Source: Thermodesulfovibrionia bacterium
GTDB lineage: Bacteria > Nitrospirota > Thermodesulfovibrionia > UBA6902
Direction: 5' to 3'
Length of the DNA: 33,707 bases
Assembly: GCA_947259645.1 (NCBI GenBank)
Contig: CAMYND010000028.1
Coordinates: forward strand, 1-33,707
Made by a program: the position numbers and the translations under genes. Below are positions 7,719-30,036 of the stretch, one piece after another (position 1 is the stretch's first letter; every line of letters starts with the position of its first letter). The notes under the pieces were generated by a model. That model was not told the origin of the DNA, made no database searches, and was given only the letters and a program-made list of their open reading frames with translations.

Positions 7719-8489
7719 TCAGCTCCATTGCCAGCATTGAAGGTGCAAACCTTTGCCCCCCACAGCCAGCGCTCCCACATAGGCGATGCCGAGATTCAAG
7801 CCAATTAACTCCAAGTTGCCAACAGAGTACCGACGATGTTCAGTGTGACTGTCAAACTGTGGCGCCGCTGGCTCAAGTACAACATTAATATCCTTAAGAC
7901 CATTTACCAGACCCATCCCTCTTGCTTTCAGAACCGCCTCTTTTCGCGTCCAGTAGGCAAAAAAGAGACGGAACCGGTCATCTTCTGGCAATGCTCTAAG
8001 CTGTTCGCTCTCATGGGGAGAATAGAATCTTTCAGCTATCTCTTCCCATTGTAATTCCTCTCGGGGATATTCAACGTCAATCCCTATTCTTCTTTTTAAA
8101 CCAACAGCATACAACGCAAGGTCCCTGGTATGAGACAGGTTGAACGAGAGTTCGCTGTTGCTGAGAGCATTATGTAAAGAAGGTTTGCCATAAGGATTAT
8201 AGGAAAAATCAATTTTTGCCGGTCCTGTTCCTAGATAAAGGGCCAGAATATTTCTGAGAATTCCCCTCCTCGCAATAAACCGTTTCTGATCCCGCCTGAA
8301 ACGATACTTTTCAGCCCGGCTGATTTCATCAGGAGATAGAATCCCAGCGAGCACGTCAACTTGAGAATCGGGAAGGTCAAGTAATGCACGCCAGGCATGA
8401 ACCTCATCAGCTTGCAGTGACAAATCCTGAGGAGGTGCCAGCCATTCTTTCTTATGCAAGACTCCTGAATTCATGTCTTCCTCATTCAT
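7719..8489 (-). CDS. Sfp-type 4'-phosphopantetheinyl transferase
   Basis: A 256-residue enzyme that converts apo carrier proteins to holo form by moving phosphopantetheine from CoA to the carrier serine. Signatures are RRIGIDVEYP (Mg-binding Asp and Glu, about residues 131-140) and FFAYWTRKEAVLKARGMGL (the W-x-x-K-E-A motif, about 169-187). Size and motifs fit the Sfp/Gsp group that serves secondary metabolism. It is the last gene of the NRPS operon: its ATG overlaps the synthetase stop in an ATGA arrangement, so it is translationally coupled and almost certainly primes the three PCP domains upstream. Confidence 0.95.
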   Translation of the reverse strand: MNEEDMNSGVLHKKEWLAPPQDLSLQADEVHAWRALLDLPDSQVDVLAGILSPDEISRAEKYRFRRDQKRFIARRGILRNILALYLGTGPAKIDFSYNPYGKPSLHNALSNSELSFNLSHTRDLALYAVGLKRRIGIDVEYPREELQWEEIAERFYSPHESEQLRALPEDDRFRLFFAYWTRKEAVLKARGMGLVNGLKDINVVLEPAAPQFDSHTEHRRYSVGNLELIGLNLGIAYVGALAVGGKGLHLQCWQWS

Positions 8490-11400
8490 AATGCTCTGTC
8501 TGACCTTTTTTTCTGTATCTCCTTCAGATACTTACTCATCAATTTGGCCCAGATCCCCACATAAGGCTCCTTGATCATACCAAGATGATCAGCTTCCGGC
8601 ACAACATGGACCGTCACTTCCCCCTCTACCAGATCAAGCCAGTCTCGATGGCAAGACCAATCAGTTCTGTCAGAATTAAATAGAATTACTCTACCGGTAT
8701 AACCCTGATATGCATAGTTATTTGCGAGCTGGTCGGCATATAGGTTCCACACGTAGAAACTTACGAGCGGTCGTGGCACGGGGTGTCCAAAAAAGAGAAT
8801 AGTCCTGCATACAGCAATCTTGATTCTACTTATTACCCTGTCAACGGTTTTTCTTTTGATCCAACTTACTGCCGGAGGAATTTTTTTAAACATGTATGCT
8901 ATCTTCCCCGTATTTTCTAATCTATTGAGAATATCGGTATGATGGATAATTCTTGATTTAAAAGTATAGTCATTTCCCGGAGGATCATGGTTTCTGGCAG
9001 AATTCCTCAAGTATCTAAAAGACGTGTCTACAAGAAAAAGTAAGGGGACCTCATGCCCCTGCTTTTTCAACTGACGGGCCATTTCAAGCGCTATGGCGCC
9101 AAAAAAACAATATCCACCCAGCATGTAAGGGCCTTCCGGCTGTTCAGCAAGCAGCCTCTCTATGCAGTGAGTTGCTATTTCTTCAACAGTAGAGAAAACA
9201 GGAAGGAATCCATGCTCTTCCCAGCTGATTAAGATATAGGCCGGCTGGTCAGGCTCAAGATGACGCATGAAAAAAGAACCGCTTGTCCAGAATAAAGGCA
9301 TTCTTGATCCATGAGACTGAATTGGAATTACTGATGAAGAGATTTCAGGCATACCTTCTTTGAGGATAGCCCCTGCCATTTGCTCAATAGTCGGCGCTTT
9401 GAAAACAGCAATGACGGTAAGATCCTTCCCCGTTGCCTTTTTCACTTCAGCTATCAACTTTACTGTCAGCAGTGAATGCCCTCCAAGATCGAAAAAATTG
9501 TCCCTTATCCCTACCTGTTCAATTCCAAGGACTTTTTCCCAGACCCTTACTAATTGTTTCTCCAGTTCATTGCGGGGTGCCACAAATTGTTCTTCTAAAT
9601 CAGTCCGTTCCAAGCCAGGTTCGGGTAATGCCTTCCGGTCTACTTTGCCGCTGGTGGTCATGGGGAGTGAATCGAGCATAACAAAAAAGGATGGTACCAT
9701 ATAGTCAGGCAGTCTCTCCTTAAGATCACTTCTCAGTTGTTTGGTCGTGATGCCTGACATTTCGTTCGGTACGACAAAAGCGATCAGGCGCTTATCTCCA
9801 GGGTGGTCCTCCCTCGCAATAACTATCGCCTCCCCTACTCCGTCATGCTGCCCAAGCACTGCTTCGATTTCACCAGGCTCGATGCGGAATCCCCTTACCT
9901 TTAGCTGATGATCGATCCTCCCTGAAAAATCGATGTTGCCGTCGGGAAGATAACGGGCCAGATCACCGGTCCTGTATAAGCGTGCTCGGGATTTATCGCT
10001 AAAGGGGTTTGCAACAAACTTCTCGGCAGTTAACTCCGGCCGGTTGTGATAGCCGAGAGCAAGACCGTCTCCGCCTATATAAATTTCTCCGTAGACTCCG
10101 ACAGGGACAGGTCGCATATGTTTGTCGAGTAAATATACCCGTGTATTGGAAATAGGTTTTCCTATAGGTATAGATAAAACAGGCAGCTTTAAACTCCCGG
10201 ATATATCATAGCAACAGGTAAAGGTTGTACTCTCTGTAGGACCATAACCATTCACAAGGTAAACGTGAGGCAATATTTCCATTGCTTTTTGAATATGTGT
10301 AGCAGACAATGATTCACCACCGGTAATTAGTTGTTTCACTGGTGCCAGTATCTTCGGTGCTTCGTCTATGATTGTATTAAAATATGATGAGGTCAGCCAG
10401 AGTGTGCTTATAGAATGCTGCTTAATTATATCTCCGAGCAGGGCAACAGAAGGATAACGCTCAGTATACACAACGCATAGAGCACCATGCAGCAATGCTC
10501 CCCAGAGTTCGAAAGTAGAAGCGTCAAATGATATGGGAGCAAGAAGAAGAAAACGCTGCCCTGCATCGAACCGTAGATAATCCTGTCCAGTAACAAGACG
10601 CGTTATTCCACGGTGCGGGACCTCCACCCCCTTGGGCTTTCCTGTAGACCCTGATGTATACATAACATAAGCGAGGTCATCAGGTACTACATTACTTTTA
10701 ATGTTCTCGGTACTTTGTTCTGACATTATTTCCCAGTCATCGTCAAGACAAATAATACGAGTTCGGTTTTCAGGAAGGCTGTTTAGAACACTCTTCTGTG
10801 TAAGGAGCATAGGTGTCCGGCAATCTTCCATCATAAAAAACAGTCTCTCCGCAGGGTAGGACGGGTCAAGTGGAACATAGGCCGCACCTGTCTTTAGAAT
10901 GCCGAGTATGCCAACCACCATTTCAATGGACCGTTCCATACAGATGCTCACCATCGTCCCTGAACGGACGCCAAGTACCATCAAATAATGGGCAACCTGA
11001 TTGGCCCGACGGTTAAGTTCTCCATAGCTAAGATTCCGATTACCACAGATTAAAGCCACAGCATCTGGGGTACGTTCAACCTGTTCTTCAAAAAGCTGGT
11101 GAACAGATTTATCGGCAGGGTAATCTTTCCCTGTATCATTCCATTCAACGAGCAATTGATGCTGCTCAAGCTCAGTCAGCATCGGCAGCTCCGACAGTGT
11201 GCGTTCAGGGTCGGAAACAATGCCCTCAAGCATTACCCTGTAATGCTGCGACAGTCTTTCAATGGTGGCAGGTTCAAACAGGTCGGTGTTGTATACAAAT
11301 AATACCTGTACCCCATCTTCAAGCTCGTCCAGGTACACCTCAAGGTCAAACTTTACCCTTGTATATTCTATATCTATATGTTCAAGTGTTAAACCAGACA

Positions 11401-14400
11401 GCTCCGGCGTTGAATAGGGCACATTTTGCAGAGCAAAAGTTACCTGAAACAGAGGAGTCCGGCTCAAGTCACGCTCCGGCTTTATTGCCTCCACCAGTTT
11501 CTCAAAAGGTAAATCCTGATGTTCATAGGCACCAAGGAGCTTCTTTTTTACTTTTTGGAGCAGCTCCCGGAAAACAGGATTACCCGAAGTGTCAGTCCGC
11601 ATCACAAGGGTGTTTACAAACAAGCCTATCAGTCCCTCTAATTCAACATAGTTACGGTTAGAGATGGGAGAGCCGACGACAATATCATCCTGTCCGGTGT
11701 ACCGGTGAAGCAGGCACTGGAATGCTGCAAGTAATGTCATGAAGAGAGTCACTCCCTCATTTCTGCTTAGTCCCTTAAGCGACTCAACTAACTCTCCTGA
11801 CAGCTTAAACTGATGACTTCCTCCACGAAATGTCTGTACTTTAGGGCGGGGATGGTCTACTGGAAGCTCAAGTGTATTCATTCCCTTGAGTTCCTCCATC
11901 CAGTAAGTGAGTTGTTTCTCAAGAGTCTCACCGCTCATCCATTCCCTCTGCCACACCGAAAAGTCTGCATACTGAACCGGGAGTTCCTTTAGTGGTGAAA
12001 GACCGCCTTTTAAGAAAGAGTTATATAACATTGATATTTCCCGGAAAAGAATTCCCGCTGACCAACGGTCAAATATTATATGGTGTATTTTCAACAACAG
12101 GACATGCTCTTCCTTACCCTCCTTTACAAGTACGGCTTTCAGCAAAGGGCCGGATGAAAGATCAAAAGACTCTTCGCTTACAGCCCGCATTACCTCACGT
12201 TCTTTCTGCTTCCCCGCTTCTGTGCCAAGATCTATTTGCTGCAAAGTGAAAGTTGCCTCAGATACAATCTTTTGAATGGTTTGCTCATCCTGGACAGAAA
12301 ATGTTGTACGCAGTATTTCGTGACGATTTATTAATTCTTTAAAGCTCTGTTCAAGGGCTTCCTGATTCAACTCGCCAGTCAGCCTCATGGCAAGCATTTC
12401 ATCATAGGGAGAACTATCGGCCTCCATCTGATCAAGAAACCATAAACGCTGCTGGGAAAAAGAGAGGGGCAGGTCACTATCTCTGGAAACTGCCTTAATA
12501 CAGGAGCCTGTGAATCCGGAATCATCCACCCTTACTGATTCTATATACTCGGAAAGAGATCGAATAGTTGGCTTCTCAAATATAACCATCAAGGGCATTT
12601 GCACCTGAAATACACTGTTAATTCTTGAAACAAGCTGTGTAGCCATCAGGGAATGTCCTCCCAGGTGAAAAAAGTTTTCTGTAACCCCGATCTGTTTCCG
12701 GTGCAGCAAGTCCTGCCATATATGCTGCAAAGCTGTTTCTACGGAATTTTTAGGCTCCACGCGTGCGGTATTATCAGCTGCCTGCTCCTTTGAATAAAGG
12801 GACAGCTTCTGTCTGTCTACCTTCCCGTTGGGACTGAGGGGCAGTGAATCAAGAACAATAAAACTGGAAGGAATCATATATTCAGGCAGACTCTTTGAGA
12901 GTGATTCCTGCAGTGTACCCGTATTTATTGTTTGTCCCTGATTGGGCACAATAAAAGCAGTAAGTCCCTCTACAAAACCTGTCTGCTCTGTCGCTGAACT
13001 GTTTTCTACCTCTGCAATCTGCCCTGCTCTGTCATCCCCCTGAGCAAATATGTTATTGGCCATACCTTCTACATTTTGACCTTCTGGACTACTACTATTT
13101 AGCATGAGCCGGTCTGGTGCGCCAGTTACGAGGACTTCGACCTGCCGAACTTCAGGGTATGTCAAAAGTGTGTTTTGTATTTCACCGGTCTCAATACGGT
13201 ATCCCCTCACTTTTACCTGCTCATCATTACGTCCCAGAAATTCCAGATTCCCGTCATCCAGAAAACATACTATATCGCCGGTTTTATAGAGAACACCTTC
13301 TCCGTTTTTGTTGAAAGGATTCGGGATAAAGCGCTCCGCGGTCAGATCCGGCCGATTCAGGTACCCTAGAGAAATACCGGAACCACCAAGGTACAGCTCG
13401 CCGGGAATCCCCGGTGGAACCTGTCGGAGGTCCCCGTCCAGGACATAGACCTGTGTGTTCTCAATTGGCCGTCCAATTGGCACTGTAACAGTTGAATACT
13501 GTCGGCTGCAATCAAAGACAGTACTCCAGACGGTCGCTTCAGTAGGACCATACTCATTGAACAGTTGAGCTTCAGGGAGTGTATCTCGATGACATGCCAC
13601 CAGATCAGGCGTACATGCCTCACCAGCAACAACAACGGTCTGCAATGAGACAAGCATCTTCGCATGATACTGGAGCAATTGATCGTAAAGGGATGGTATG
13701 CTCAGCAGGTGCGTAATAAAATTTTCTGCAATCATGCCTGCAATATGATTAACGTCCCGAAATTGCTTCCTGTCAGGGATGAAAAGGCAGCCGCCTCTGC
13801 ACAGGGTGCCATATATTCCGGCAACCGAGCTGTCAAAGGAGATGCTCGACAGGAGCATGAAACGTTCAGGAACATTTCCATAATAACCGATTCTGGCTCC
13901 AGTAGAGTGTGCAAGATTCCCATGGCTGATCATGACGCCTTTTGGATTACCCGTTGATCCCGATGTGTAAATGATATATGCGATGCCATCAGGATTGGCA
14001 CTTTCTTCAGGGTTTGAGTCACTTAATTGACTGATCCCGTGTTTGTCATCATCTATAACGATCACCTTTAATTGAGCAGTCTGCAACTCCTGCTCAAGCT
14101 CATGATGGGTGAGAACTGTTTGAATATCAGCATCATCAATCATGTAGGCAATACGCTCCATGGGATATGACGGATCAAGAGGAACATATGCAGCTCCTGA
14201 TTTCAGTACTGCCAGTATGGCTGTTATCATCTCTATGGAGCGATCTATGTATATGCCTACTATGGTCCCCGGCCCTGCCTCGTTATCGGACAGATAGTTG
14301 GCCAGCTGATTTGCCCGGCGATTGAGTTCATCATAACTGAGACGCTCGTTCCCGTAAACAACGGCACCTTTTTCGGGTTCTTGCAAAGCCTGTTCTTCAA

Positions 14401-15793
14401 TCAGCTTGAGAACAGGCTTTGCCGGCAGGTTCTTCCCTGTGGTGCCACACCACTCAATTACAAGCTTCTGTTCCATTTCAGTTAATATGGGCAGGTCTCT
14501 AATCAATTGATCAGGCCTGGCAGCAAAAGATTGTAATAGTATCTCGACATGATTCAGCAGACGTGAGATACTTCCCTCATCAAAAAGGCTGCGATCATAA
14601 ACAGCTACAAGACGTAAACGCGGACCTGGCAGCGCCAGCAGAACCAGAGGATAGTTGCTTTGATCCCTGTAACTCACATCACTTATTTCAATTTCCGAGG
14701 GGAGACTTTCTGCTGCATTATCTACAGGCATGTTTTCAAAAACAAAAAGAGACTGGAATAACGGTACTCCAAGCGGAAGTTCGCTCCATTCATGGACTTT
14801 CAAAAGAGGAGTGTATTCAAACTCTCGTGCTTCAATCTGCTTCCCTTGCAGTTTCACAAGCCAGTTGGACAGTGAGTCTGTCGGCTCGACCGTCACCCTG
14901 ACCGGCAGGGTATTGATGAAAAGACCGACCATTCCCTCGACTCCTTCTAAAGATGCCGGCCGCCCTGATACTGTAGTACCGAACAGAATATCTTCTTCAC
15001 CCGTATACCTGTGGAGCAAAAGAGCCCATGCTCCCTGGATCATAGTATTAAGCGTCAATCGCTGTTTTTGGGCGGAACTTCTCAGTCCGGCCGTGGCCTG
15101 GCTGGAAAGTACCAGCTCTTTATGACTCTGTCCTTTGTCATCTCTCTGAAGTCGTTGGGTTACAAGAGGGGTTGGAGAAGAAATATTCTTTAGTTGTTCT
15201 TTCCAGAAATGTTCAGCCTCTGACAAGTCCTGCTTCTGAAGCCACGCAATATAATCACGAAATGGATTAGCAGCATGATCTTTGAGGTTTTCTCCCCGGC
15301 AGAGTGCATGGTAAAGTTCCCACACCTCCCGGAGAACGACTGTGGTAGACCAGCCGTCGCATAACATGTGGTGAAGGCTCCACACCCACTGATATGTATG
15401 TTCTTTGATTCGGAACAGCCTGAAGCGCATAAGAGGCGCCCTGTCCGGATCAAATCCGCATACCCGGTCATCATGCAGAAAGGTTTCCAGCCATTCAGCA
15501 AATTCACTATCTGATCTTTTCTCCAGTTGCTCTGTCTTCCAGTCGAGATCGACTTCACGGCGTACAACCTGTAGGGGTTCATCCAGTTCTTCCCAGAAAA
15601 AGGCTGTTCGTAATGACTGATGCCGCTGGACAACTGACTCCCATGAGCGCTGAAAGAGTTCAAGATCTAAGTTACCTGACAACCTGCATGTATACTGCGT
15701 GACATAAATCCCGGTTCCCGGCTCCTTGAGAGTGTGGAAAAGCATGCCTTCCTGAAGAGGTGACAGCGGATATATATCTTCTACATTTTCCAT
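8486..15793 (-). CDS. NRPS, modules 2 and 3: C-A-PCP-C-A-PCP-TE
   Basis: A 2435-residue dimodular synthetase. Module 2: C domain about 1-440 with intact HHMLCDG (141-147), A domain about 460-1000 and PCP serine near 1048 (HLGGHS). Module 3: C domain about 1110-1545 with HHIIFDR at 1237-1243 (consensus Gly replaced by Arg), A domain about 1565-2060, PCP serine near 2107, then a thioesterase about 2155-2435. My reading of the A-pocket gives DSALVAEVWK for module 2 (no confident amino acid) and DAFWIGGTFK for module 3 (the classical valine code). The module 2 A domain carries an extra low-complexity stretch, about residues 893-943, between motifs A8 and A9. The TE has Cys2229 where Ser is usual (GGYCFFGA), with Asp2256 and His2403 as likely partners. 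The first C domain begins VEDIYPLSPLQEGM, as expected after an epimerising module. The ATG lacks a Shine-Dalgarno and follows the upstream synthetase by 37 bp. Confidence 0.96.
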   Translation of the reverse strand: MENVEDIYPLSPLQEGMLFHTLKEPGTGIYVTQYTCRLSGNLDLELFQRSWESVVQRHQSLRTAFFWEELDEPLQVVRREVDLDWKTEQLEKRSDSEFAEWLETFLHDDRVCGFDPDRAPLMRFRLFRIKEHTYQWVWSLHHMLCDGWSTTVVLREVWELYHALCRGENLKDHAANPFRDYIAWLQKQDLSEAEHFWKEQLKNISSPTPLVTQRLQRDDKGQSHKELVLSSQATAGLRSSAQKQRLTLNTMIQGAWALLLHRYTGEEDILFGTTVSGRPASLEGVEGMVGLFINTLPVRVTVEPTDSLSNWLVKLQGKQIEAREFEYTPLLKVHEWSELPLGVPLFQSLFVFENMPVDNAAESLPSEIEISDVSYRDQSNYPLVLLALPGPRLRLVAVYDRSLFDEGSISRLLNHVEILLQSFAARPDQLIRDLPILTEMEQKLVIEWCGTTGKNLPAKPVLKLIEEQALQEPEKGAVVYGNERLSYDELNRRANQLANYLSDNEAGPGTIVGIYIDRSIEMITAILAVLKSGAAYVPLDPSYPMERIAYMIDDADIQTVLTHHELEQELQTAQLKVIVIDDDKHGISQLSDSNPEESANPDGIAYIIYTSGSTGNPKGVMISHGNLAHSTGARIGYYGNVPERFMLLSSISFDSSVAGIYGTLCRGGCLFIPDRKQFRDVNHIAGMIAENFITHLLSIPSLYDQLLQYHAKMLVSLQTVVVAGEACTPDLVACHRDTLPEAQLFNEYGPTEATVWSTVFDCSRQYSTVTVPIGRPIENTQVYVLDGDLRQVPPGIPGELYLGGSGISLGYLNRPDLTAERFIPNPFNKNGEGVLYKTGDIVCFLDDGNLEFLGRNDEQVKVRGYRIETGEIQNTLLTYPEVRQVEVLVTGAPDRLMLNSSSPEGQNVEGMANNIFAQGDDRAGQIAEVENSSATEQTGFVEGLTAFIVPNQGQTINTGTLQESLSKSLPEYMIPSSFIVLDSLPLSPNGKVDRQKLSLYSKEQAADNTARVEPKNSVETALQHIWQDLLHRKQIGVTENFFHLGGHSLMATQLVSRINSVFQVQMPLMVIFEKPTIRSLSEYIESVRVDDSGFTGSCIKAVSRDSDLPLSFSQQRLWFLDQMEADSSPYDEMLAMRLTGELNQEALEQSFKELINRHEILRTTFSVQDEQTIQKIVSEATFTLQQIDLGTEAGKQKEREVMRAVSEESFDLSSGPLLKAVLVKEGKEEHVLLLKIHHIIFDRWSAGILFREISMLYNSFLKGGLSPLKELPVQYADFSVWQREWMSGETLEKQLTYWMEELKGMNTLELPVDHPRPKVQTFRGGSHQFKLSGELVESLKGLSRNEGVTLFMTLLAAFQCLLHRYTGQDDIVVGSPISNRNYVELEGLIGLFVNTLVMRTDTSGNPVFRELLQKVKKKLLGAYEHQDLPFEKLVEAIKPERDLSRTPLFQVTFALQNVPYSTPELSGLTLEHIDIEYTRVKFDLEVYLDELEDGVQVLFVYNTDLFEPATIERLSQHYRVMLEGIVSDPERTLSELPMLTELEQHQLLVEWNDTGKDYPADKSVHQLFEEQVERTPDAVALICGNRNLSYGELNRRANQVAHYLMVLGVRSGTMVSICMERSIEMVVGILGILKTGAAYVPLDPSYPAERLFFMMEDCRTPMLLTQKSVLNSLPENRTRIICLDDDWEIMSEQSTENIKSNVVPDDLAYVMYTSGSTGKPKGVEVPHRGITRLVTGQDYLRFDAGQRFLLLAPISFDASTFELWGALLHGALCVVYTERYPSVALLGDIIKQHSISTLWLTSSYFNTIIDEAPKILAPVKQLITGGESLSATHIQKAMEILPHVYLVNGYGPTESTTFTCCYDISGSLKLPVLSIPIGKPISNTRVYLLDKHMRPVPVGVYGEIYIGGDGLALGYHNRPELTAEKFVANPFSDKSRARLYRTGDLARYLPDGNIDFSGRIDHQLKVRGFRIEPGEIEAVLGQHDGVGEAIVIAREDHPGDKRLIAFVVPNEMSGITTKQLRSDLKERLPDYMVPSFFVMLDSLPMTTSGKVDRKALPEPGLERTDLEEQFVAPRNELEKQLVRVWEKVLGIEQVGIRDNFFDLGGHSLLTVKLIAEVKKATGKDLTVIAVFKAPTIEQMAGAILKEGMPEISSSVIPIQSHGSRMPLFWTSGSFFMRHLEPDQPAYILISWEEHGFLPVFSTVEEIATHCIERLLAEQPEGPYMLGGYCFFGAIALEMARQLKKQGHEVPLLFLVDTSFRYLRNSARNHDPPGNDYTFKSRIIHHTDILNRLENTGKIAYMFKKIPPAVSWIKRKTVDRVISRIKIAVCRTILFFGHPVPRPLVSFYVWNLYADQLANNYAYQGYTGRVILFNSDRTDWSCHRDWLDLVEGEVTVHVVPEADHLGMIKEPYVGIWAKLMSKYLKEIQKKRSDRAL

Positions 15794-15830
15794 ATAATAT
15801 CAATCAGTTTATTTTTAATAATTATTAAAT

Positions 15831-18800
15831 CTATTCATAAGCTTTATCGGACTTATCCAGTAACCGGGACAATTTTGCCAGCTTTTCAGCATTAAGATTA
15901 GCCAGCGGAAAATCTGACGCACTCGGTTCATCACCTGACGGTTTCATGCAATGGTTTATCAGCCCTTGAAGTGACTGAAGAAATTTACGGGATATCCCCT
16001 GTATGGTTTCAGGCCTGTGTCGATCTGTGCTGAATGTCCAGTACGCTTCCAACTGATCATGAATTACGCAGGAGTTTATTTCTATCAGATGCGGCCGCTG
16101 CCCTTTTAGACCGCGGACTCCCTGCAGAAAACCATTTAATCGAATTCTGGATGATTGCCCGCTTAACTCGTGCAGCGTTCCCAGGTAGTTAAATATTACC
16201 TCAGCATCAGGCACCTGCTTCATTGCATCCCTTATGGTCCTGTTCTTACTGAGATAACGCAAAGGACTATATCCAAAACCCCTATTGGGAATGGCCCGTA
16301 TCTGTTCTTTAACCGACCTTATGATCTGTCCGGGCCCATGTTCATCCGGGAGGACAAGGCTTAGTGGATACAGGGAGGTGAACCACCCCAGGGTGTGATA
16401 TAGGCTAACTTCTTTAATAACACCCTCTCTGCCGTGTCCTTCTTTATCCACCCTTAATACAGAACTGCCGCTCCAGTTGCACAGCGTTTGCATGAGAGCT
16501 GCCAGCAGCATCTCATCAACGCTAATCCGGCTGGAGAGGTTGACTTTATGAAGGAGATCATGGGTAGCCTGAGGTTCTAATTTAACAGTAATAGTCTGGG
16601 CCGAAGACTCCAGGCCATTTCCTGGATGATCAATATCCCGGGGAAGAGATGCGGTCGGCGGCCTGACCTGACCTATCCAGTAATCAGCTTCCGATTCACA
16701 GGCCTGAGAATTAGCATACTGGACAAATTTTTCCGCCCATTCATTGAAAGGTGTTGTTTTACGTGAAAGCAGCGGAGTTTTTCCTTCGGTAAGATCGCGG
16801 CAAATGGTCTCCAGATCCTCCAGAATAATATACCATGATATGCCATCCACAACTAAATGATGAATGATAATCCCAAGCTGACATGGCTGGTCCCCGCCCC
16901 GGTCAAAGTACAGTGCCCGTATAAGAGGACCCTTTTGAAGGTCCAGCGATAAATGCGCCTGTTGCATGGAGCGGTCTATAGATGTTGCTTGTTCAGGCTC
17001 CGTCTGATCTGACAGATTGTAATATTCCAGGGCAAATGAATTGTCAGCATTACTAACGGCCTGTTCCCAGCCTGAGGCCTTCCTCTGGAAACGAAGGCGC
17101 AGGGAATCATGGTGAAGTATCAGATGCTTAAATGCCTGCTCCAGGATAGCTGGGGTTATTTCCCTGCTTAGATCCAGATTCTGCGCCATATTCCAGATGT
17201 GCGGCTCCGGTAAATCAAAATCAAAGAACCACTGCTGTATGGGTGTAAGCGGTACTGATCCCTTTCCCGGCCGCTGTTCATGGCCGGCTTCGATATTCGC
17301 AATCAATTCAGCAATCGTCTGATGCTGCAAAAGCAGACCGGGCGTAAATTCCAGCCCTGCATTTACTGACCGGGCAGCAATCTGAATGCTCATGATCGAA
17401 TCTCCGCCCAAATCAAAAAAATTATCATGTATACCGACCTGATTAAGTCCAATAACGTCCGCCCAGATTCGGGCCAGAATTTTTTCATTATTTGTACGTG
17501 GTTCCTCATAAGCGTTATCGAGATCCGGCCTTGCCGAATCTGGTTCAGGAAGTGCTTTTCGATCAATCTTTCCATTGGGTGATAAGGGCAGTTCATCCAG
17601 CATCACAAATACCGACGGTATCATATAATCAGCCAGCTTCTTCTTCAACTCTTTACGTAATTCATCTATTGATGGGGCTTCTGTTTGCGTAACGAGATAT
17701 GCAACAAGATGTTTATCTCCTGAATTATCTTCTCGAGCTACAACCACACATTGTTTCACCCCTGGTTCATCTCCAAGTACGGCTTCAATCTCTCCAAGTT
17801 CAATACGTATACCGTGGATTTTTACCTGAAAGTCGTTGCGACCCAGATATTCGATATTTCCATCGGGCAAATAACGGCAGAGATCACCAGTTTTGTAAAG
17901 TCGTGCTCCCTGCCTGTCAGAAAAGGGATCAGGAATAAATCTCTCTTTGGTCAGTTCCTGCCTGTTAATATAACCAAGAGCCACCTGTACACCGCCGATA
18001 TGCAGTTCACCGGGCACTCCGACCGGAACAGGATGCATATGATGGTCCAGAATAAACATCCGGGTGTTGGCGACAGGTCTGCCAATTGGGACTATCTTAA
18101 GGTCACTCCCTGACTGACATTTCCAATAGGTTACATCTACGGCTGCTTCTGTAGGTCCATATAAATTGTGCAGCTCTGCTTTCATTTTAGAGAAGAACTG
18201 TTCCTGTAACGCATAAGGCAGGGCCTCACCGCTGCAAATTACACGTTTCAATGAGTCACAGCTGCCAGCTCCCCGGTCCTCAAGAAAATAATGAAGCATG
18301 GACGGCACGAAATGAAGAGTAGTAACTCCCTGTTCACAAATCACGTTAACAAGATAATCAGTGTCCCGGTGGCCCCCCGGACGGGCAACTACTAATCGTG
18401 CCCCGGTCAGCAGGGGCCAGAAAAACTCCCATACCGAGACATCAAAACTGAAAGGTGTTTTCTGCAGAACAACATCTTCAGAAGTCAGACTATATTCATC
18501 CTGCATCCACAACAGACGATTGCAGATTCCACGATGGCTGTTCATTACACCCTTTGGCCTGCCTGTGGAGCCTGAAGTGAAAATGACATATGCCATATTT
18601 TCAGGGGTTGTAATACACTCAGGATTATTATCTATGTTTATAGTGTTGTCACCCGGTTGAATCAAAGAGCACGAGTCAGAAAGAAGCTCATCAAGACAGA
18701 GCACCTGCAGGTTGTCCTGTGGAATAGTTCTGATCAACTTTCTTTGGACCAGAACGACAGAGACCTTTGAATCCTCCAGCATATAATCAAGCAGATCTTT

Positions 18801-20426
18801 GGGATAGTTCGGATCAAGTGGGACATAGGCCCCGCCGGCCTTGAGTATGGCGTACAGTCCAATGACCATCTCTATGGAACGGTCTGCGCAGATTCCAACC
18901 GGTACATCAGGCCCTGTCCCCAGTGTACGAAGATAATGTGCGAGTCTGTTTGCCTGAACGTTCATTTCCCTGTAAGTCAGACTCTCACCTTCAAATATTA
19001 ACGCAACCTCATCGGGTGTACGTTCTACCTGGGCTTCAAAGAGCTGATGAAGGCATACGTCTTCAGGATAATCTACCCTTGTATCATTCCATGTATCAAA
19101 CTGACGCGTCTCATTATCTGTTAATAGCGTCAATGCCGAAATCATCTGATCAGGATCGGCCAGCAGCATGTCAAGGAGGTGGAAAAAGTGTCCAACGGCT
19201 TTCCCGCGAAGATCCTGATCAAAGACCTCGCAGTTGAAATCAAAGTGAAATTGAAAACTGCCGGACGAATCGAAATCATGTACCTGGAGCTGCAGGGCAT
19301 GCCCCATATCTGTATGCCCGGGATGAAGCCATGTAGACTGCATCGGCATACCGCAAAAATCCGGAAATGCAACATTGATATAGTTAAGAACCACTGAATA
19401 GGACTTGTGGGTCACGGCATTGCTGCAGCCCGGATGTGCGTAGCGAAAAAAATCATAGGTTTCTGAAGTAATGGATTTAACCAAACTGCGAAAAGTCTCC
19501 CCAGGCTCAATGTTGATTCCCAGCGGAAACATTTCAATGAACAGCCCGACAGTTTCCTGAAAAGTTGCAGTTGGACGGTTGTGGGAAGGTGTGCCTATAA
19601 CTAATTCTGAATTGCCGCTTATACGATACAGGTACGCAAATAGCAAGGCTGAAAGGATATTAAAAAGCGAAAGGTGCGGGCTAAAAGAACGAAAATCTTT
19701 TTCTGTTGCCAATCCGCGCAGTTTCTCCGATCGTTCCCGGCCAAGATCGTAATATACCCTTTCAGTGAGTGTTGAATGAGCTGACGGAGTGTTGCCATAC
19801 AATTCAAGAGGTGCTGGAGCAGAACCATTCCTCCCCTGCCAGTAGGCTAGAGCTTTTCTGTGCTCAGTTGATTCCTGAAATTTGACCTCATAGTTCTGGT
19901 ACTCAAGATATGATGGTAACTCAGGAGCATCTGCCAGACGGCCATTAAGCGCTAATTGATAGAACTCGGCCATTCGTCTGTAAATGACAGCGCAGGACCA
20001 CCCATCAGTAATCAATTGGTGCTGATTGATATACCAGACATATTCACCTTCTCTAAGCTTGATTAGCACACTGTCAAACAACCGCTCTTTAAGATCAAAG
20101 TTCAGGATAGAACGCGACTTCAACCAGGATTTAATGTTACCATGATGAGCAGAATCCTTTGAGAAGTCTATGAACTCCAAATCAAATGTTAATGTTTCCC
20201 TGAAATTTTGCAGGGGAACATCATCCTTGTCATTAATGACAGTTCGAAGGGAATCGCTCCTGTCAATGAGAGTTTGAAAGGCGTCACGGAATGCTTCCGG
20301 CTCTATATTGCCCTGGATAAAAAAGGCGAGGGCCATATTATAAAGCGGTAGATGAGGATTAAGCTTCTGTCCGGTCCAGATGTGAAATTGACTGTTTGTG
20401 AGATTAGATAATTTAAGTTTGTTCAA
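15831..20426 (-). CDS. NRPS, module 1: C-A-PCP-E
   Basis: A 1531-residue monomodular synthetase, first gene of the operon. Domains: C about 1-435, A about 455-965, PCP with serine 1010 (FFDLGGDS), and an epimerisation domain about 1055-1490. The E domain shows PLTPIQQWFF, HHLVVDG (1189-1195), TLGWFTSLYPL and the diagnostic FNYLG. The A-pocket reads DVWHISLVDK, one change from the EntF serine code, so it should load L-Ser and pass on D-Ser. The starting C domain has HQLITDG at 136-142, with Gln137 in place of the second, catalytic His. Being a starter C domain, it might acylate the serine or be inactive. The only in-frame start is a TTG at 20426, since an in-frame stop lies just upstream. The short helical C-terminus (EKLAKLSRLLDK) could dock the next synthetase. 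Confidence 0.95.
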   Translation of the reverse strand: MNKLKLSNLTNSQFHIWTGQKLNPHLPLYNMALAFFIQGNIEPEAFRDAFQTLIDRSDSLRTVINDKDDVPLQNFRETLTFDLEFIDFSKDSAHHGNIKSWLKSRSILNFDLKERLFDSVLIKLREGEYVWYINQHQLITDGWSCAVIYRRMAEFYQLALNGRLADAPELPSYLEYQNYEVKFQESTEHRKALAYWQGRNGSAPAPLELYGNTPSAHSTLTERVYYDLGRERSEKLRGLATEKDFRSFSPHLSLFNILSALLFAYLYRISGNSELVIGTPSHNRPTATFQETVGLFIEMFPLGINIEPGETFRSLVKSITSETYDFFRYAHPGCSNAVTHKSYSVVLNYINVAFPDFCGMPMQSTWLHPGHTDMGHALQLQVHDFDSSGSFQFHFDFNCEVFDQDLRGKAVGHFFHLLDMLLADPDQMISALTLLTDNETRQFDTWNDTRVDYPEDVCLHQLFEAQVERTPDEVALIFEGESLTYREMNVQANRLAHYLRTLGTGPDVPVGICADRSIEMVIGLYAILKAGGAYVPLDPNYPKDLLDYMLEDSKVSVVLVQRKLIRTIPQDNLQVLCLDELLSDSCSLIQPGDNTINIDNNPECITTPENMAYVIFTSGSTGRPKGVMNSHRGICNRLLWMQDEYSLTSEDVVLQKTPFSFDVSVWEFFWPLLTGARLVVARPGGHRDTDYLVNVICEQGVTTLHFVPSMLHYFLEDRGAGSCDSLKRVICSGEALPYALQEQFFSKMKAELHNLYGPTEAAVDVTYWKCQSGSDLKIVPIGRPVANTRMFILDHHMHPVPVGVPGELHIGGVQVALGYINRQELTKERFIPDPFSDRQGARLYKTGDLCRYLPDGNIEYLGRNDFQVKIHGIRIELGEIEAVLGDEPGVKQCVVVAREDNSGDKHLVAYLVTQTEAPSIDELRKELKKKLADYMIPSVFVMLDELPLSPNGKIDRKALPEPDSARPDLDNAYEEPRTNNEKILARIWADVIGLNQVGIHDNFFDLGGDSIMSIQIAARSVNAGLEFTPGLLLQHQTIAELIANIEAGHEQRPGKGSVPLTPIQQWFFDFDLPEPHIWNMAQNLDLSREITPAILEQAFKHLILHHDSLRLRFQRKASGWEQAVSNADNSFALEYYNLSDQTEPEQATSIDRSMQQAHLSLDLQKGPLIRALYFDRGGDQPCQLGIIIHHLVVDGISWYIILEDLETICRDLTEGKTPLLSRKTTPFNEWAEKFVQYANSQACESEADYWIGQVRPPTASLPRDIDHPGNGLESSAQTITVKLEPQATHDLLHKVNLSSRISVDEMLLAALMQTLCNWSGSSVLRVDKEGHGREGVIKEVSLYHTLGWFTSLYPLSLVLPDEHGPGQIIRSVKEQIRAIPNRGFGYSPLRYLSKNRTIRDAMKQVPDAEVIFNYLGTLHELSGQSSRIRLNGFLQGVRGLKGQRPHLIEINSCVIHDQLEAYWTFSTDRHRPETIQGISRKFLQSLQGLINHCMKPSGDEPSASDFPLANLNAEKLAKLSRLLDKSDKAYE

Positions 20427-22570: not shown

Positions 22571-23145
22571 TGCCACGAGCGAACGCTGGAAGGAGGTGAG
22601 AAATAAAGCGTTTGAAGCTGCACAAGAGATGAGAGTAGATCTCTCGGATTCGGTTTGCAGGAGCAGGCTTTAAACCACCTTACGCTGCATTGGTAAAGAG
22701 CCATTGTGGTGAGCGTTAAGGAAAAGGCAAGGCAGAAGATCGTGTCAGCTGTGAGTCAAAGAGACGAATGAAAATGAACCGCTTATCACGTGTCGAAATC
22801 TTAAAGGAGATGTCAAAACTGAGGGGCACTCCTGTCTCAGGATAAGTTCAGAGGATACCTGTTTACCGACTGAATGGCATCCGGTATGGAGGCGGCGTGA
22901 ACTTAATTCAGGCTTTCGTGTGGAACGTGGGAACCTGTCGTTCCGATGATAAGGGAGAAATTCAAGTGGAGGACCCACAAGAATGAGAGTACCGCTGCGG
23001 AGCACAGGGGCGGACCATCCCGTAGTAGTTAAGAAGTTCTTGTAATGAGAATGGAGCGAAGGGGATGGATTATCCAGCTGGACTCAAAAGATCAACCAGT
23101 ACATGGGAGAAATCTGTGAAGAAGGCAAAGTCGTTTAGAATTTCC
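22571..23145 (+). mobile_element. Group II intron, 5' part only (domains I to IV start)
   Basis: The plus strand carries long stretches typical of bacterial group II intron RNA: TCGTGTGGAACGTGGGAACC near 22916, GATAAGGGAGAAATTCAAG near 22946, GTACCGCTGCGGAGCACAGG near 22989 and GGGGCGGACCATCCCGTAG near 23007. GTGCC at 22571 fits the GUGYG-like 5' end. The intron-encoded reverse transcriptase should follow, but only its first residues (about 23117 on, KKAKSFRISK) are present before the sequence switches to a nitrilase gene end. No domain V/VI hairpin is found, so the element cannot splice or move by itself. Confidence 0.78.
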
Positions 23146-24677: not shown

Positions 24678-26792
24678 ATGAAAACAAGGTTCGCTTTTTT
24701 ATCATTTCTGATATTACTGCTGGGTAGTACCGCATTAGCCGACATAAAAGAATACAACCTTGTTATCCGCTATGATGCGGTAAATCTCACGGGACGCAGC
24801 GTACAGGCCATGACGATTAATGGCGCTATTCCAGGCCCGTCCCTCAGGTTCCGGGAAGGCGATACAGCCAAAATCCATGTTCGCAATGAGATGGATGTCG
24901 AGACATCAATTCACTGGCACGGGATTCTTCTGCCAAATCTGCAGGATGGTGTCCCGTACGTGACTACTCCTCCGATCATGCCGGGGACGACTTTTACGTA
25001 TGAGTTTCCTTTGATACATTCAGGTACATACTGGTATCACTCTCATACAGGTCTTCAGGAGCAGCGGGGAGTATATGGTTCTATAGTCATCGAACCTCAG
25101 ATGCCATCAATAACAACGGATATTGACCATGTTGTCGTTATTTCCGACTGGACTGATGAAAATCCTGATGAAGTACTTCGGACGCTCAAAAGTGGAAATG
25201 ATTACTACTCACTGAAAAAAGGTGCCATGCAGAGCCTCTACGGGGCAATAAAAGCCGATGCTTTACCAGATGTCCTCATGCGTTCATGGGATCGCATGCC
25301 ACCCATGGACATTTCAGATATAGCCTATGATCGTTTTCTGGTAAACGGGACACAATCAGCATCACTGAACGCACATACGGGGCAGAAGTTACGACTGCGT
25401 ATTATCAACGCTTCTGCATCAACATACTTCTACCTCCAGTATTCCGGCGGGAATATGCAGGTCATTTCTGCTGACGGCGTTAATGTAAAGCCGGTTCATC
25501 TGGAACGCTTTCTGATTGCAGTAGCCGAGACATACGATGTTGTAATAACAGTGCCTGATAACAAGGCATATGAATTTCGCGCCACTGCCCAGGACGGTTC
25601 AGGGTACACATCGCTCTTTATCGGAATGGGGGAACAGGTGGCAGCACCTGATATCCCGAAACCGAATCTCTATAAAATGCACAGCGGCCACGACATGTCC
25701 GGTGCTAACATGAGCAGTATGATGAAACATAATGGCAGCATGTCCCAAAACGATATGAAAAATATGCCTCAGCAGGAAAGCAGCATGTCAGAAAGTGACA
25801 TGAAAGGCATGGTGGAGCAGGAAAGTAACATGAGCATGTCAATGACTGAACGTCCCCCGGCTCCCTATGATAACCTCAGGTCTCCTGTATCTACAGCCCT
25901 CTCGAAAGACCTTCCTCTCCGGGAAATCAGGCTTGAGCTCACAGGTGATATGGAACGGTATGTCTGGTCAATGAATGGTAAAACCCTCAACGAAGCTGAT
26001 CTGATCAGGATTAAAAAGGGAGATAATGTTCGGTTTGTTCTGGTCAACAAAACGATGATGCACCATCCCATGCACCTCCATGGACATTTTTTCAGGGTTG
26101 TTAACAAACACGGAGACTATTCTCCTCTAAAGCATACCTTTGATGTTCCTCCTCTCGGGACTCAGGTTATTGAGTTTTATGCCAATGAGGAGAAGGACTG
26201 GTTCTTTCACTGTCATGTCCTGTATCACATGAAGGCAGGCATGGCCCGTATCGTGCATTATGAGGATTCAGAACTGGATCCGCTGATAGCTCCCATCAGA
26301 AAAAATCTTTTTAAAGAGCACTGGTACTTCTGGGCTGATGCTTCGTTCCTGACTCAGATGACAGAAGGACAACTCGTCGCTGCGGATACACGCAATACAT
26401 TCAGAGGAACATGGGAGGCAGGTTGGGATGAGGACTTTGAGGCGGTGTTTACCTATGAAAGATATTTTAACCGCTTTTTTCAGGCCATTGCCGGTGGGGT
26501 ATTGACTGATGGTGAACAGGAAGACAGGGGAATCATCGGATTCAGATATCTTCTTCCTTTTTTAGTAGAAAGTTCTGTCTGGGTTGATACCGAAGGGGAC
26601 GCGCGTATCACTCTTGATAAATCGGTCCACCTTACAGACAGGCTCTATGCATTTGGTGAGTTTCAGTATGACAGCGAGTCAAAAGAAGAGTGGCTAATCG
26701 GAGCAGGCCTGAAACTGAGCAGGCACTTCTCTCTTATAGCCCAGCATCATTCAGAGTACGATGCGGGCGTAGGCATAAATATCCGGTATTAA
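24678..26792 (+). CDS. CopA-type multicopper oxidase fused to a CopB-like outer-membrane barrel
   Basis: A 704-residue exported protein (signal peptide about 1-21). Cupredoxin domains carry all four copper motifs: HWHG at 79-82, HSH at 121-123, HHPMHLHGHFF near 461 and HCHVLYHMKAGM near 511. Between the second and third cupredoxins lies a Met/His/Ser-rich stretch, about residues 333-393, typical of PcoA/CopA Cu(I) oxidases. After the last motif CopA proteins normally end near 560-600. Here about 160 more residues follow, with alternating beta strands (FRGTWEAGWDEDFEAVFTYE, FLVESSVWVDTEGDARITLD) and an aromatic C-terminus (GVGINIRY), resembling the CopB/PcoB barrel. It likely detoxifies periplasmic Cu(I) while anchored in the outer membrane. 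GGAGCAGGA precedes the ATG. Confidence 0.92.
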   Translation: MKTRFAFLSFLILLLGSTALADIKEYNLVIRYDAVNLTGRSVQAMTINGAIPGPSLRFREGDTAKIHVRNEMDVETSIHWHGILLPNLQDGVPYVTTPPIMPGTTFTYEFPLIHSGTYWYHSHTGLQEQRGVYGSIVIEPQMPSITTDIDHVVVISDWTDENPDEVLRTLKSGNDYYSLKKGAMQSLYGAIKADALPDVLMRSWDRMPPMDISDIAYDRFLVNGTQSASLNAHTGQKLRLRIINASASTYFYLQYSGGNMQVISADGVNVKPVHLERFLIAVAETYDVVITVPDNKAYEFRATAQDGSGYTSLFIGMGEQVAAPDIPKPNLYKMHSGHDMSGANMSSMMKHNGSMSQNDMKNMPQQESSMSESDMKGMVEQESNMSMSMTERPPAPYDNLRSPVSTALSKDLPLREIRLELTGDMERYVWSMNGKTLNEADLIRIKKGDNVRFVLVNKTMMHHPMHLHGHFFRVVNKHGDYSPLKHTFDVPPLGTQVIEFYANEEKDWFFHCHVLYHMKAGMARIVHYEDSELDPLIAPIRKNLFKEHWYFWADASFLTQMTEGQLVAADTRNTFRGTWEAGWDEDFEAVFTYERYFNRFFQAIAGGVLTDGEQEDRGIIGFRYLLPFLVESSVWVDTEGDARITLDKSVHLTDRLYAFGEFQYDSESKEEWLIGAGLKLSRHFSLIAQHHSEYDAGVGINIRY
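25737..25826 (+). repeat. Tandem 45-bp repeat encoding Met-rich units in the copper oxidase
   Basis: Two adjacent 45-bp units encode SMSQNDMKNMPQQES and SMSESDMKGMVEQES. They lie in the Met-rich linker and probably expand Cu(I) binding capacity. Confidence 0.8.
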
Positions 26793-28064: not shown

Positions 28065-28562
28065 TCAATGATTCTCACTATGTTGAACCTCACCTGAAGC
28101 TGAAAGGGATTGAATGTAGTTGACAATATCCCAAATTTCATTCTCGCTTAAAATATTTTTCCACGCTGGCATCTCTCCCTTGCCATTATCTATTTTCCAT
28201 GCAAATTCAGCATCAGAGTGCGTCCCCGCCATTTGTCTTAAGTTGGCAGGCTTGATAGTAAACGCTTTAGCAGCTGCACCGTCCCCCTCGGCATTTATCC
28301 CATGGCAAGACACACAATTTAGTAAGAAAAGGTCGTTTCCGCGCTTTATCGACTCAGCTGAAGATAGTACCGGGTTTCTTTCCTTCGCGGCATCTTTGGG
28401 GACAAGCCACTCTTTACCTGTTTCATTCTGTACTGTTCCAAGAGACTCATCTTCATCCGGCAGTTCACCTGCGGGGCTTCTTAATAAAATAAATGCAAAG
28501 GAAACAATAATAAACAGTGCCATTGCATTGACAAAGACACTTTCAAGTTTCTTTGTGTCCAC
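28065..28562 (-). CDS. Membrane-anchored c-type cytochrome
   Basis: A 165-residue protein with one N-terminal membrane anchor (SVFVNAMALFIIVSFAFILL) and a single haem c motif, CVSCH (about residues 83-87). The likely distal Met is in GKGEMPAWKN. The layout fits small cytochrome c domains of the cbb3 CcoP/nitrite reductase-accessory type. I chose the GTG at 28562: it follows the stop of the selenoprotein fusion by 1 bp and has GGAG 8 nt upstream. The ATG at 28613 would force a 50-bp overlap into the preceding gene. It probably passes electrons to or from the upstream membrane selenoprotein. Confidence 0.88.
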   Translation of the reverse strand: MDTKKLESVFVNAMALFIIVSFAFILLRSPAGELPDEDESLGTVQNETGKEWLVPKDAAKERNPVLSSAESIKRGNDLFLLNCVSCHGINAEGDGAAAKAFTIKPANLRQMAGTHSDAEFAWKIDNGKGEMPAWKNILSENEIWDIVNYIQSLSASGEVQHSENH

Positions 28563-28563
28563 C

Positions 28564-30036
28564 TTAAATGCTCCGATAGAGTGCTGCCATAAAGAGAAAA
28601 GCACAGAAAACACTCACATAGTAAAATGATTTATCCATGTTCAGCCTCATTACATAAGTAAGGGCTCTCTGTTTCTTCTCATATAACCTGTGCTTCTGTA
28701 TGATTTTTAAAATAAGACTGGTCCCAATGATATTGGAGAGAACACCTATTGTCAGAAAAAAGTCCTGAAAATGCCCGAGAAAGACAACTGTTGCCGGGAT
28801 CGCCATGAGCGGCATAACATTGGCCATATACTGCGCGCAACATGCGACGACAGAAGTCGAGGACAATCCTCCTGCTACAGCCACTGCCGAACCAGCCCTC
28901 CCTGACAGCTTCCGCACCCTCACCACTTCCCGAAGGTATGTGTACAGGCCAACCTGAATTCCAAAACCCGTGCCAAGCATCAATATCCAGTACCAGACTA
29001 GCTTGAACTGATCGATTGAGTGAGCAAATGTTGCGGTTACAGAGGATATCAGGAAATATACTGTAAAAAGTGAAACTGCTGCAGTTATGCCCCAGATTAT
29101 CGGCCTGCTGTTTAATCGCTTATTGTTGCTGTCAGCATGACTCAGGTCCCCTGATGCATTTGATCCCTGTATAATTTCGTTGCATATCGTTTCCCCCTCC
29201 ATGGACGGTTTCACTCTATTCACCTGAACTGGCGCAGAATAATTGTCATAAGTCTCTCGCTTCCATCGAAAGGGAATATCAACAATTTCACCAGGAATTT
29301 GAATCGCATAGAGAGCGTTAAAGGCCTCCATAAGTACGGCCCTCTGTTGAAGAATATGATCAGGCTCTCCAAGAGGATGACCAAATGGCCACTTCAGGAA
29401 AATAGACCTCGGTGGTTTAACCTTTTCTGTAAAGTTTCTTACAATCGATATCCCGATCGTCGAGATCCCTGCTTTTTCAATCTCCCGCTGTATCAGCCCG
29501 ACGGACTGATTGCAGATACCTCAGCCAGGTGTGAGCAATACAACATCCACATTATTTTCTTTCAGTCTTTTTGCAACTTCCCGCGATGTGTCGTGAATAA
29601 GCGTCTGAACATGGATACCTTTGATATGCCCCATAAAGCCATAATGTTTCTCTGCCAACTGCCCAATAAATCCTTCAGACGCCAACTCTCTAAGCCTTTC
29701 AATTGGGAACAAGATATTCAGATCTTTATCAGCATCTGAATGGTCATAGTAATCATGGGTTATCATAAGATCACTCAGAGGTCTTTCTGCATCTATCTCT
29801 CTGAACGTAGCATCACCCTGCGGGTCGTCCATGTCAAATGGGACCTGATCCCTTTGGTGGATTCCTCCCGTAGTGACAAGCGCGACTTTTGAGTCGGACA
29901 AAAGCTTTGTTACCGGTATCCATGGAATATCAGTTGACTCAACTGCATGGAATAACTCACTGAAAATGCCGGCGAGAGACGGATACCGTGTCAAGAATTT
30001 TGCAACTGTCCTGCGTTTTAGTCTTGCCAGATTCAT
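28564..30036 (-). CDS. Selenoprotein: GrdB-like reductase domain fused to a membrane domain, UGA-Sec at codon 172
   Basis: A single frame of 490 residues when the TGA at 29521-29523 is read as selenocysteine. Residues 1-171 match the glycine/betaine/sarcosine/D-proline reductase selenoprotein B family, ending DVVLLTPG. Next come Sec172-Gly-Ile-Cys, then QSVGLIQREIEKAGISTIGI, the family continuation. The bridge of 63 codons between the UGA and the next ATG has no stops and reads as family sequence (VKPPRSIFLKWPFGHPLGEP). Residues about 305-490 add four to six membrane helices with a Cys pair (STSVVACCAQYMANVMPL). Start: ATG at 30036 with AAGGA 8 nt before. TGA works as a true stop in other genes here, so general recoding is unlikely. 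Sec-x-x-Cys suggests thiol/selenol redox. The partner is unknown; a cytochrome c gene follows by 1 bp. Confidence 0.88.
29492..29510 (-). promoter_or_regulatory. Candidate bacterial SECIS hairpin
   Basis: On the minus strand the RNA from 10 nt past the UGA reads AUCAGUCC-GUC-GGGCUGAU, an 8-bp stem with one U-G pair and a GUC loop (or 7 bp with a five-base loop). The loop G lies 19 nt after the UGA, inside the range known for bacterial SECIS elements, and the G-U loop dinucleotide matches the SelB-binding consensus. The codons also make sense as protein, as expected for a bacterial SECIS within a coding region. Confidence 0.75.
29521..29523 (-). other. UGA codon read as selenocysteine
   Basis: In-frame TGA inside the conserved Pro-Gly-U-Gly-Ile-Cys motif. 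Family homologues carry Sec or Cys here. The frame continues for 318 codons downstream. Confidence 0.85.

Follow-up and report, generated by a model that had tools for sequence, protein, structure and literature searches.

A probable bacterial SECIS hairpin behind an in-frame UGA in a Thermodesulfovibrionia gene that joins a PrdB/GrdB-like domain to a membrane domain

The hairpin on the minus strand of the window (the whole stretch of 33,707 nucleotides that was analysed) is, with a probability of roughly 0.94, a bacterial SECIS element, with UGA-172 encoding selenocysteine (Sec) in a 490-residue protein that consists of an N-terminal PrdB/GrdB-like domain and a C-terminal membrane domain. We conclude that a bacterial SECIS very probably directs Sec into a UxxC motif because the hairpin itself, its pairing in homologues, silent covariation and the Sec machinery of the genome agree. 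The hairpin, the covariation, the machinery, the conservation of coding sequence past the UGA and the membership in a family with a conserved UGA were all computed. The features are the following:

29521-29523, minus strand: in-frame UGA codon, candidate Sec-172 of the ORF 30036-28564 (UGA in 25/25 rows of the phylum search and in 79/80 loci)
29492-29510, minus strand: putative upper stem-loop of a bacterial SECIS, AUCAGUCC GUC GGGCUGAU, loop G at 29502 (fold, homologue pairing, silent covariation)
29510-29503, 29502-29500 and 29499-29492, minus strand: 5' arm AUCAGUCC, loop GUC and 3' arm GGGCUGAU of this stem-loop
29485-29515, minus strand: putative SECIS with the short lower helix CUGC/GCGG, 29515-29512 pairing with 29488-29485 (single-sequence fold)
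29239-30036, minus strand: PrdB/GrdB-like selenoprotein domain with UxxC, here GUGIC (TIGR04483, PF07355, AlphaFold2)
28567-29145, minus strand: C-terminal membrane domain (~180 aa) that follows a short linker and has an invariant Cys-Cys (same frame, alignment)
28065-28613, minus strand: cytochrome c gene directly downstream of the ORF (PF13442 and PF00034 over cut-off)
24678-26792, plus strand: copper-resistance-type multicopper oxidase gene (TIGR01480 at 446 bits, just under the cut-off of 478.95)

The sole interruption of the ORF at 30036-28564 (minus strand) was the UGA at 29523-29521, and the predicted product would comprise a redox selenoprotein part of about 266 residues followed by the membrane domain. 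The best family match of the N-terminal part was TIGR04483 (E 1e-59), yet its 201.8 bits fell short of the cut-off of 300. PF07355 was over its gathering score (44.7 versus 22 bits), which together with GUGIC places the protein in the GRDB superfamily, and TIGR01918, a model of the glycine/betaine/sarcosine reductase selenoprotein B (GrdB), was also exceeded (67.4 bits, cut-off 65.45). The protein aligned with the C-terminal part only of the GrdB models, and the other NCBIfam Grd models were far below cut-off. In the AlphaFold2 model the pLDDT was mostly >90 over residues 31-260 and the UxxC lay between a strand and a helix. A sequence search of the PDB returned no convincing relative, and a Foldseek search of the model against the PDB gave nothing at E <=0.001. 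The protein is a new member of the PrdB/GrdB-like selenoprotein family, which is already known, and it probably behaves like the redox selenoproteins with UxxC in the PrdB group. According to the accessible text of two studies (PMC1088965, PMC2398784), PrdB-type selenoproteins have been published since at least 2005, and the Sargasso Sea and GOS sets contained 42 and 235 genes, respectively, for Sec-containing PrdB with UxxC.

PrdB, the 26-kDa selenoprotein subunit of D-proline reductase, has the UxxC with Sec in common with the window protein; elsewhere it is UGA-encoded in Firmicutes plasmid copies and is reported from marine metagenomes. The window protein differs from it in staying below the TIGR04483 cut-off, in its fusion to a membrane domain and in the lack of a PrdA match in the source genome, where the search that found PrdA in 2/2 control records did not find it. 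In the absence of a PrdA match, an assignment as PrdB of D-proline reductase (equivalog) was rejected, and the protein is probably no D-proline reductase. The same genome holds a second, unfused PrdB-like UGA gene (G000:C4:76667-77332, L034), and the congeneric genome G395 carries two tandem UGA copies (L134, L135). At another locus (L050:5255-6460) a sulfide:quinone reductase-like protein, with 207.5 bits to NF049943 and thus below the cut-off of 525, was encoded between two PrdB-like UGA genes.

The membrane domain belongs to an undescribed family; it matched no Pfam or NCBIfam model and was helical in the AlphaFold2 model, at low confidence. Its Cys-Cys (residues 399-400, nt 28842-28837, minus strand) was invariant in seven aligned members, and matches to the domain were found in 8/395 genomes of the phylum. 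When the HMA-type protein of locus L083 was added to an alignment, most invariant columns disappeared; this was taken as a misalignment, and the alignment was set aside. Several of the loci with this domain (L035, L127, L128, L129, L130 and L083) have a small ORF bearing the motif GHH(R/S)xG, which either comes after the domain or is joined to it. The fusion to a PrdB-like protein was seen in the window only. It is conceivable, although we doubt it, that the SECIS is real and the fusion stems from faulty assembly or from a recent joining of two genes that has no function, an alternative that concerns the fusion alone. It would account for the occurrence of the fusion in one assembly, for its absence from the 80 loci examined (0/80, best 80 of 186 relatives), for the length of the 30 aligned homologues (257-295 aa) and for the failure to find a fused copy in one congeneric genome searched. 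It is at odds with the one continuous frame over both parts, interrupted by nothing except the UGA, and with the occurrence of both parts in one same-strand run of genes at L083. The fusion is the only part of the present description that a specialist may find new, and it is not mentioned in the accessible text of PMC13188914 and PMC9312934.

The first-pass annotation of the window had described an 8-bp stem with a GUC apical loop that starts 10 nt after the UGA and places the loop G 19 nt downstream, and these values proved exact in both coordinates and fold. All eight pairs of the stem were standard, one of them U-G, and the loop G was followed by U. The 19-nt hairpin had a minimum free energy (MFE) of -9.1 kcal/mol (z -3.8), which was equalled by 0/200 shuffles; when 50 nt were folded the MFE was -15.0 and the lower helix was added. 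The fit to known bacterial SECIS elements that had been claimed, a loop G followed by U at 16-37 nt, agrees with the bSECIS model as quoted in the accessible text of PMC13188914. The model describes a loop of 3-9 nt, a stem of 4-16 bp, a G as first or second base of the loop, a distance of 16-37 nt from the UGA and an MFE of at most -7.5. With 19 nt, 8 bp, the loop GUC and -9.1 for the hairpin alone, the element lies within these limits, and the two have in common the stem, the G-U in a small apical loop, the distance and the energy. The E. coli SECIS requires a bulged U17-like base (PMC8659212, accessible text), which is absent here; the hairpin thus conforms to bSECIS elements in general without reproducing that of E. 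coli. Among the relatives described below, an MFE of -7.5 was reached by 94/97 over 42 nt and by 63/97 for the 19-nt hairpin alone.

Taken alone, the hairpin is modest evidence for a SECIS. On both strands of the window, 26/1,524 UGA trinucleotides were followed at an allowed distance by a stem of at least 8 bp with a G-bearing loop, and the hairpin at 29492-29510 had the lowest energy of these 26. When the codons of the window gene alone were redrawn synonymously, 4.4% of 1,000 redraws also had 8/8 pairs. Rfam, searched with gathering scores and again with a relaxed E-value, gave no SECIS family at the site; within the window the search returned a group-II-D1D4-2 intron domain at 22631-22749 (plus strand, 93.4 bits). 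The suggestion that the hairpin is independent support for Sec insertion thus holds in combination with covariation among homologues and is overstated for the single hairpin: the evidence for a SECIS is strong because the covariation is family-wide, and one hairpin in one gene is weak.

Homologues came from two sources: 295 genomes of the phylum were searched, with matches in 23, and a scan of named genomes confirmed 186 relatives, of which the best 80 were kept. The titles of these 80 were mostly Nitrospirae/Nitrospirota, Deltaproteobacteria and Desulfuromonadales. UGA stood at the Sec site in all 25 rows of the phylum search that cover it, and the one locus of the best 80 of 186 without UGA (L092, PrdB-like gene at ~6508) had GGA (Gly) at this position and still 8/8 stem pairs, reflecting either a recent loss of Sec or a sequencing error. 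For the analysis of pairing, 97 distinct UGA sequences were used after removal of duplicates with identical 60 nt. L092 was left out, as were L032, where the match ends at the point at which the sequence becomes N, and the same-genus paralogues L134 and L135, which both have UGA and formed 7 and 6 of the 8 pairs. The loop-G tally and the silent-codon counts were based on 94 sequences, to which L061, L065 and L107, missed by a motif filter, were added to give the 97.

With a fixed 8-bp template the 97 sequences formed a mean of 7.59/8 pairs; at least seven pairs were present in 91/97 and all eight in 66/97. In a null model in which every amino acid was kept and the codons were redrawn from the usage of the gene (1,000 draws), at least seven pairs occurred in a mean of 14.4 sequences (maximum 26) and all eight in a mean of 2.2 (maximum 9). 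Silent changes in a Gln and a Leu codon were fully coupled: CAA occurred with TTG in 21/21 and CAG with CTN in 47/47 sequences (Fisher 5e-18). As TTG made up 55/424 of the other Leu codons in the 21 CAA genes, 2.8/21 would be expected by chance. The wobble bases of the Ser and Val codons at the tip were complementary in 74/97, against a permutation maximum of 61. A separate pair counter, applied to 95 distinct rows, found 94.7% of cells paired versus 91.6% after shuffling and 30 two-sided changes versus 6.0, with 0/500 shuffles as high in either case; slid registers were 8-53% paired. Two of its five measures were not above the shuffles, namely pairs with a two-sided change (33/500) and further pair types (500/500).

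All eight pairs were present in 64/97 single-sequence folds. For the 97 sequences RNAalifold gave no consensus under its default scoring, and with RIBOSUM scoring it returned the stem at -17.98. On a protein tree built without the hairpin codons, each trait of the Gln/Leu codons changed nine times. In a phylogeny-aware sign test the three independent pairs on well-supported branches agreed in direction (p 0.25), a number too small to reach significance; the Asn/Ile-Val pair was not significant (p 0.625). The three Cys homologues, which are all that were found and all distant, had 4-5/8 pairs, a contrast with the UGA genes that is confounded by distance because distant UGA genes scored 4-6 as well (four of true PrdB type 4-5/8, a fifth 6/8). 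The poor fit of these four to the template indicates that they have a different SECIS. Among UGA homologues, then, pairing was kept by compensatory change, with default RNAalifold negative and the sign test underpowered. The covariation analysis over homologues that the first-pass annotation had proposed thus came out in favour of the hairpin, and neither of the outcomes it had named as speaking against it was encountered: pairing exceeded the level imposed by the amino acids, and 93/94 distinct sequences had a G as one of the first two loop bases.

These results bear on a reading in which the UGA is an ordinary stop codon that split an older gene, and conservation of the peptide CNQSVGLI incidentally produces the hairpin. 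The peptide is indeed highly conserved and its amino acids alone yield a mean of 5.33/8 pairs in the synonymous-codon null, and hairpins of equal form follow other UGAs of the window at the frequency given above. We nevertheless regard an ordinary stop as highly improbable, as the UGA is kept at the site in nearly all relatives, identity to 30 homologues is higher after the UGA (mean 70%) than before it (53%), pairing is far above the null and the genome encodes the Sec machinery. In the source genome (3.41 Mb, completeness given as 99.55%), selA and selB adjoin on contig C11, tRNA-Sec (selC) was found with 72.4 bits and the anticodon tca, and selD is present with an in-frame UGA and a following hairpin of its own, so that all of selA, selB, selC and selD were found. 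That the hairpin has another role in the mRNA, such as translational pausing, stability or simple read-through, and that the ribosome passes the UGA without Sec, is equally hard to credit: coding-region stems can pause ribosomes, but spacing, loop GU and stem are bSECIS-like, in an alignment with known PrdB genes the UxxC falls on their Sec position, and selB was over its curated cut-off in 32/35 relative-bearing genomes (the other three, G021, G030 and G038, are in 180-430 contigs and have weaker or partial selB matches).

The hairpin is thus very probably a genuine bSECIS signal. As a ribosome arrives at the UGA, which lies ten bases 5' of the stem-loop, SelB carrying Sec-tRNA would bind the stem-loop through the G-U of the loop, and selenocysteine would be incorporated at this codon in place of termination. 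The UxxC of the product may then perform thiol/selenol redox chemistry.

The gene context offers some indications of a role. Besides the adjoining cytochrome c gene, the multicopper oxidase gene at 24678-26792 encodes Cu-oxidase Pfam domains over cut-off. At L083 (titled Desulfarculus sp. SURF_10), one strand carries a copper-export run in which a homologue of the membrane domain, fused to a copper-binding HMA domain, is followed by genes for a copper P-type ATPase and a methyltransferase and then by a PrdB-like gene with UGA. CPC-type P-ATPases occurred within ~6 kb in 15/80 loci (best 80 of 186), the one of L083 having been missed by the ORF caller, and other loci repeatedly have a cytochrome c or rhodanese gene immediately upstream. 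Standalone copies of the membrane domain lie beside what we take, from reading the ORFs, to be a ccmH-like gene (L127, L128) and a ccdA-like gene (L035, L127). Elsewhere in the window, two large ORFs of 2,435 and 1,531 aa at 8486-20426 (minus strand) are presumably non-ribosomal peptide synthetase-like, and an ORF near them at 7719-8489 looks by eye like a PPTase. From the context, the protein may have a redox role tied to cytochrome maturation or to metals; that it takes part in handling copper or heavy metals, as the neighbours suggest, is speculative. Tentatively, and with considerable doubt, the protein might be a membrane-tethered PrdB-like selenoprotein that carries out a selenol/thiol redox step with the Cys-Cys domain in copper or heavy-metal handling or in cytochrome c maturation, and no amino-acid reduction.

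Standard annotation would break this gene at the UGA; the analysis supports reading it as one gene that encodes a selenoprotein. The aligned set, with its silent two-sided codon changes that keep the stem, offers bSECIS predictors a clean test case. PrdB-like selenoproteins occur without PrdA, part of their loci lying near genes for copper P-type ATPases, cytochrome c or rhodanese, and the fusion gives a concrete lead on the role of such proteins. If the proposed redox role is true, it would be the first function for the abundant 'PrdB' selenoproteins outside D-proline reductase.
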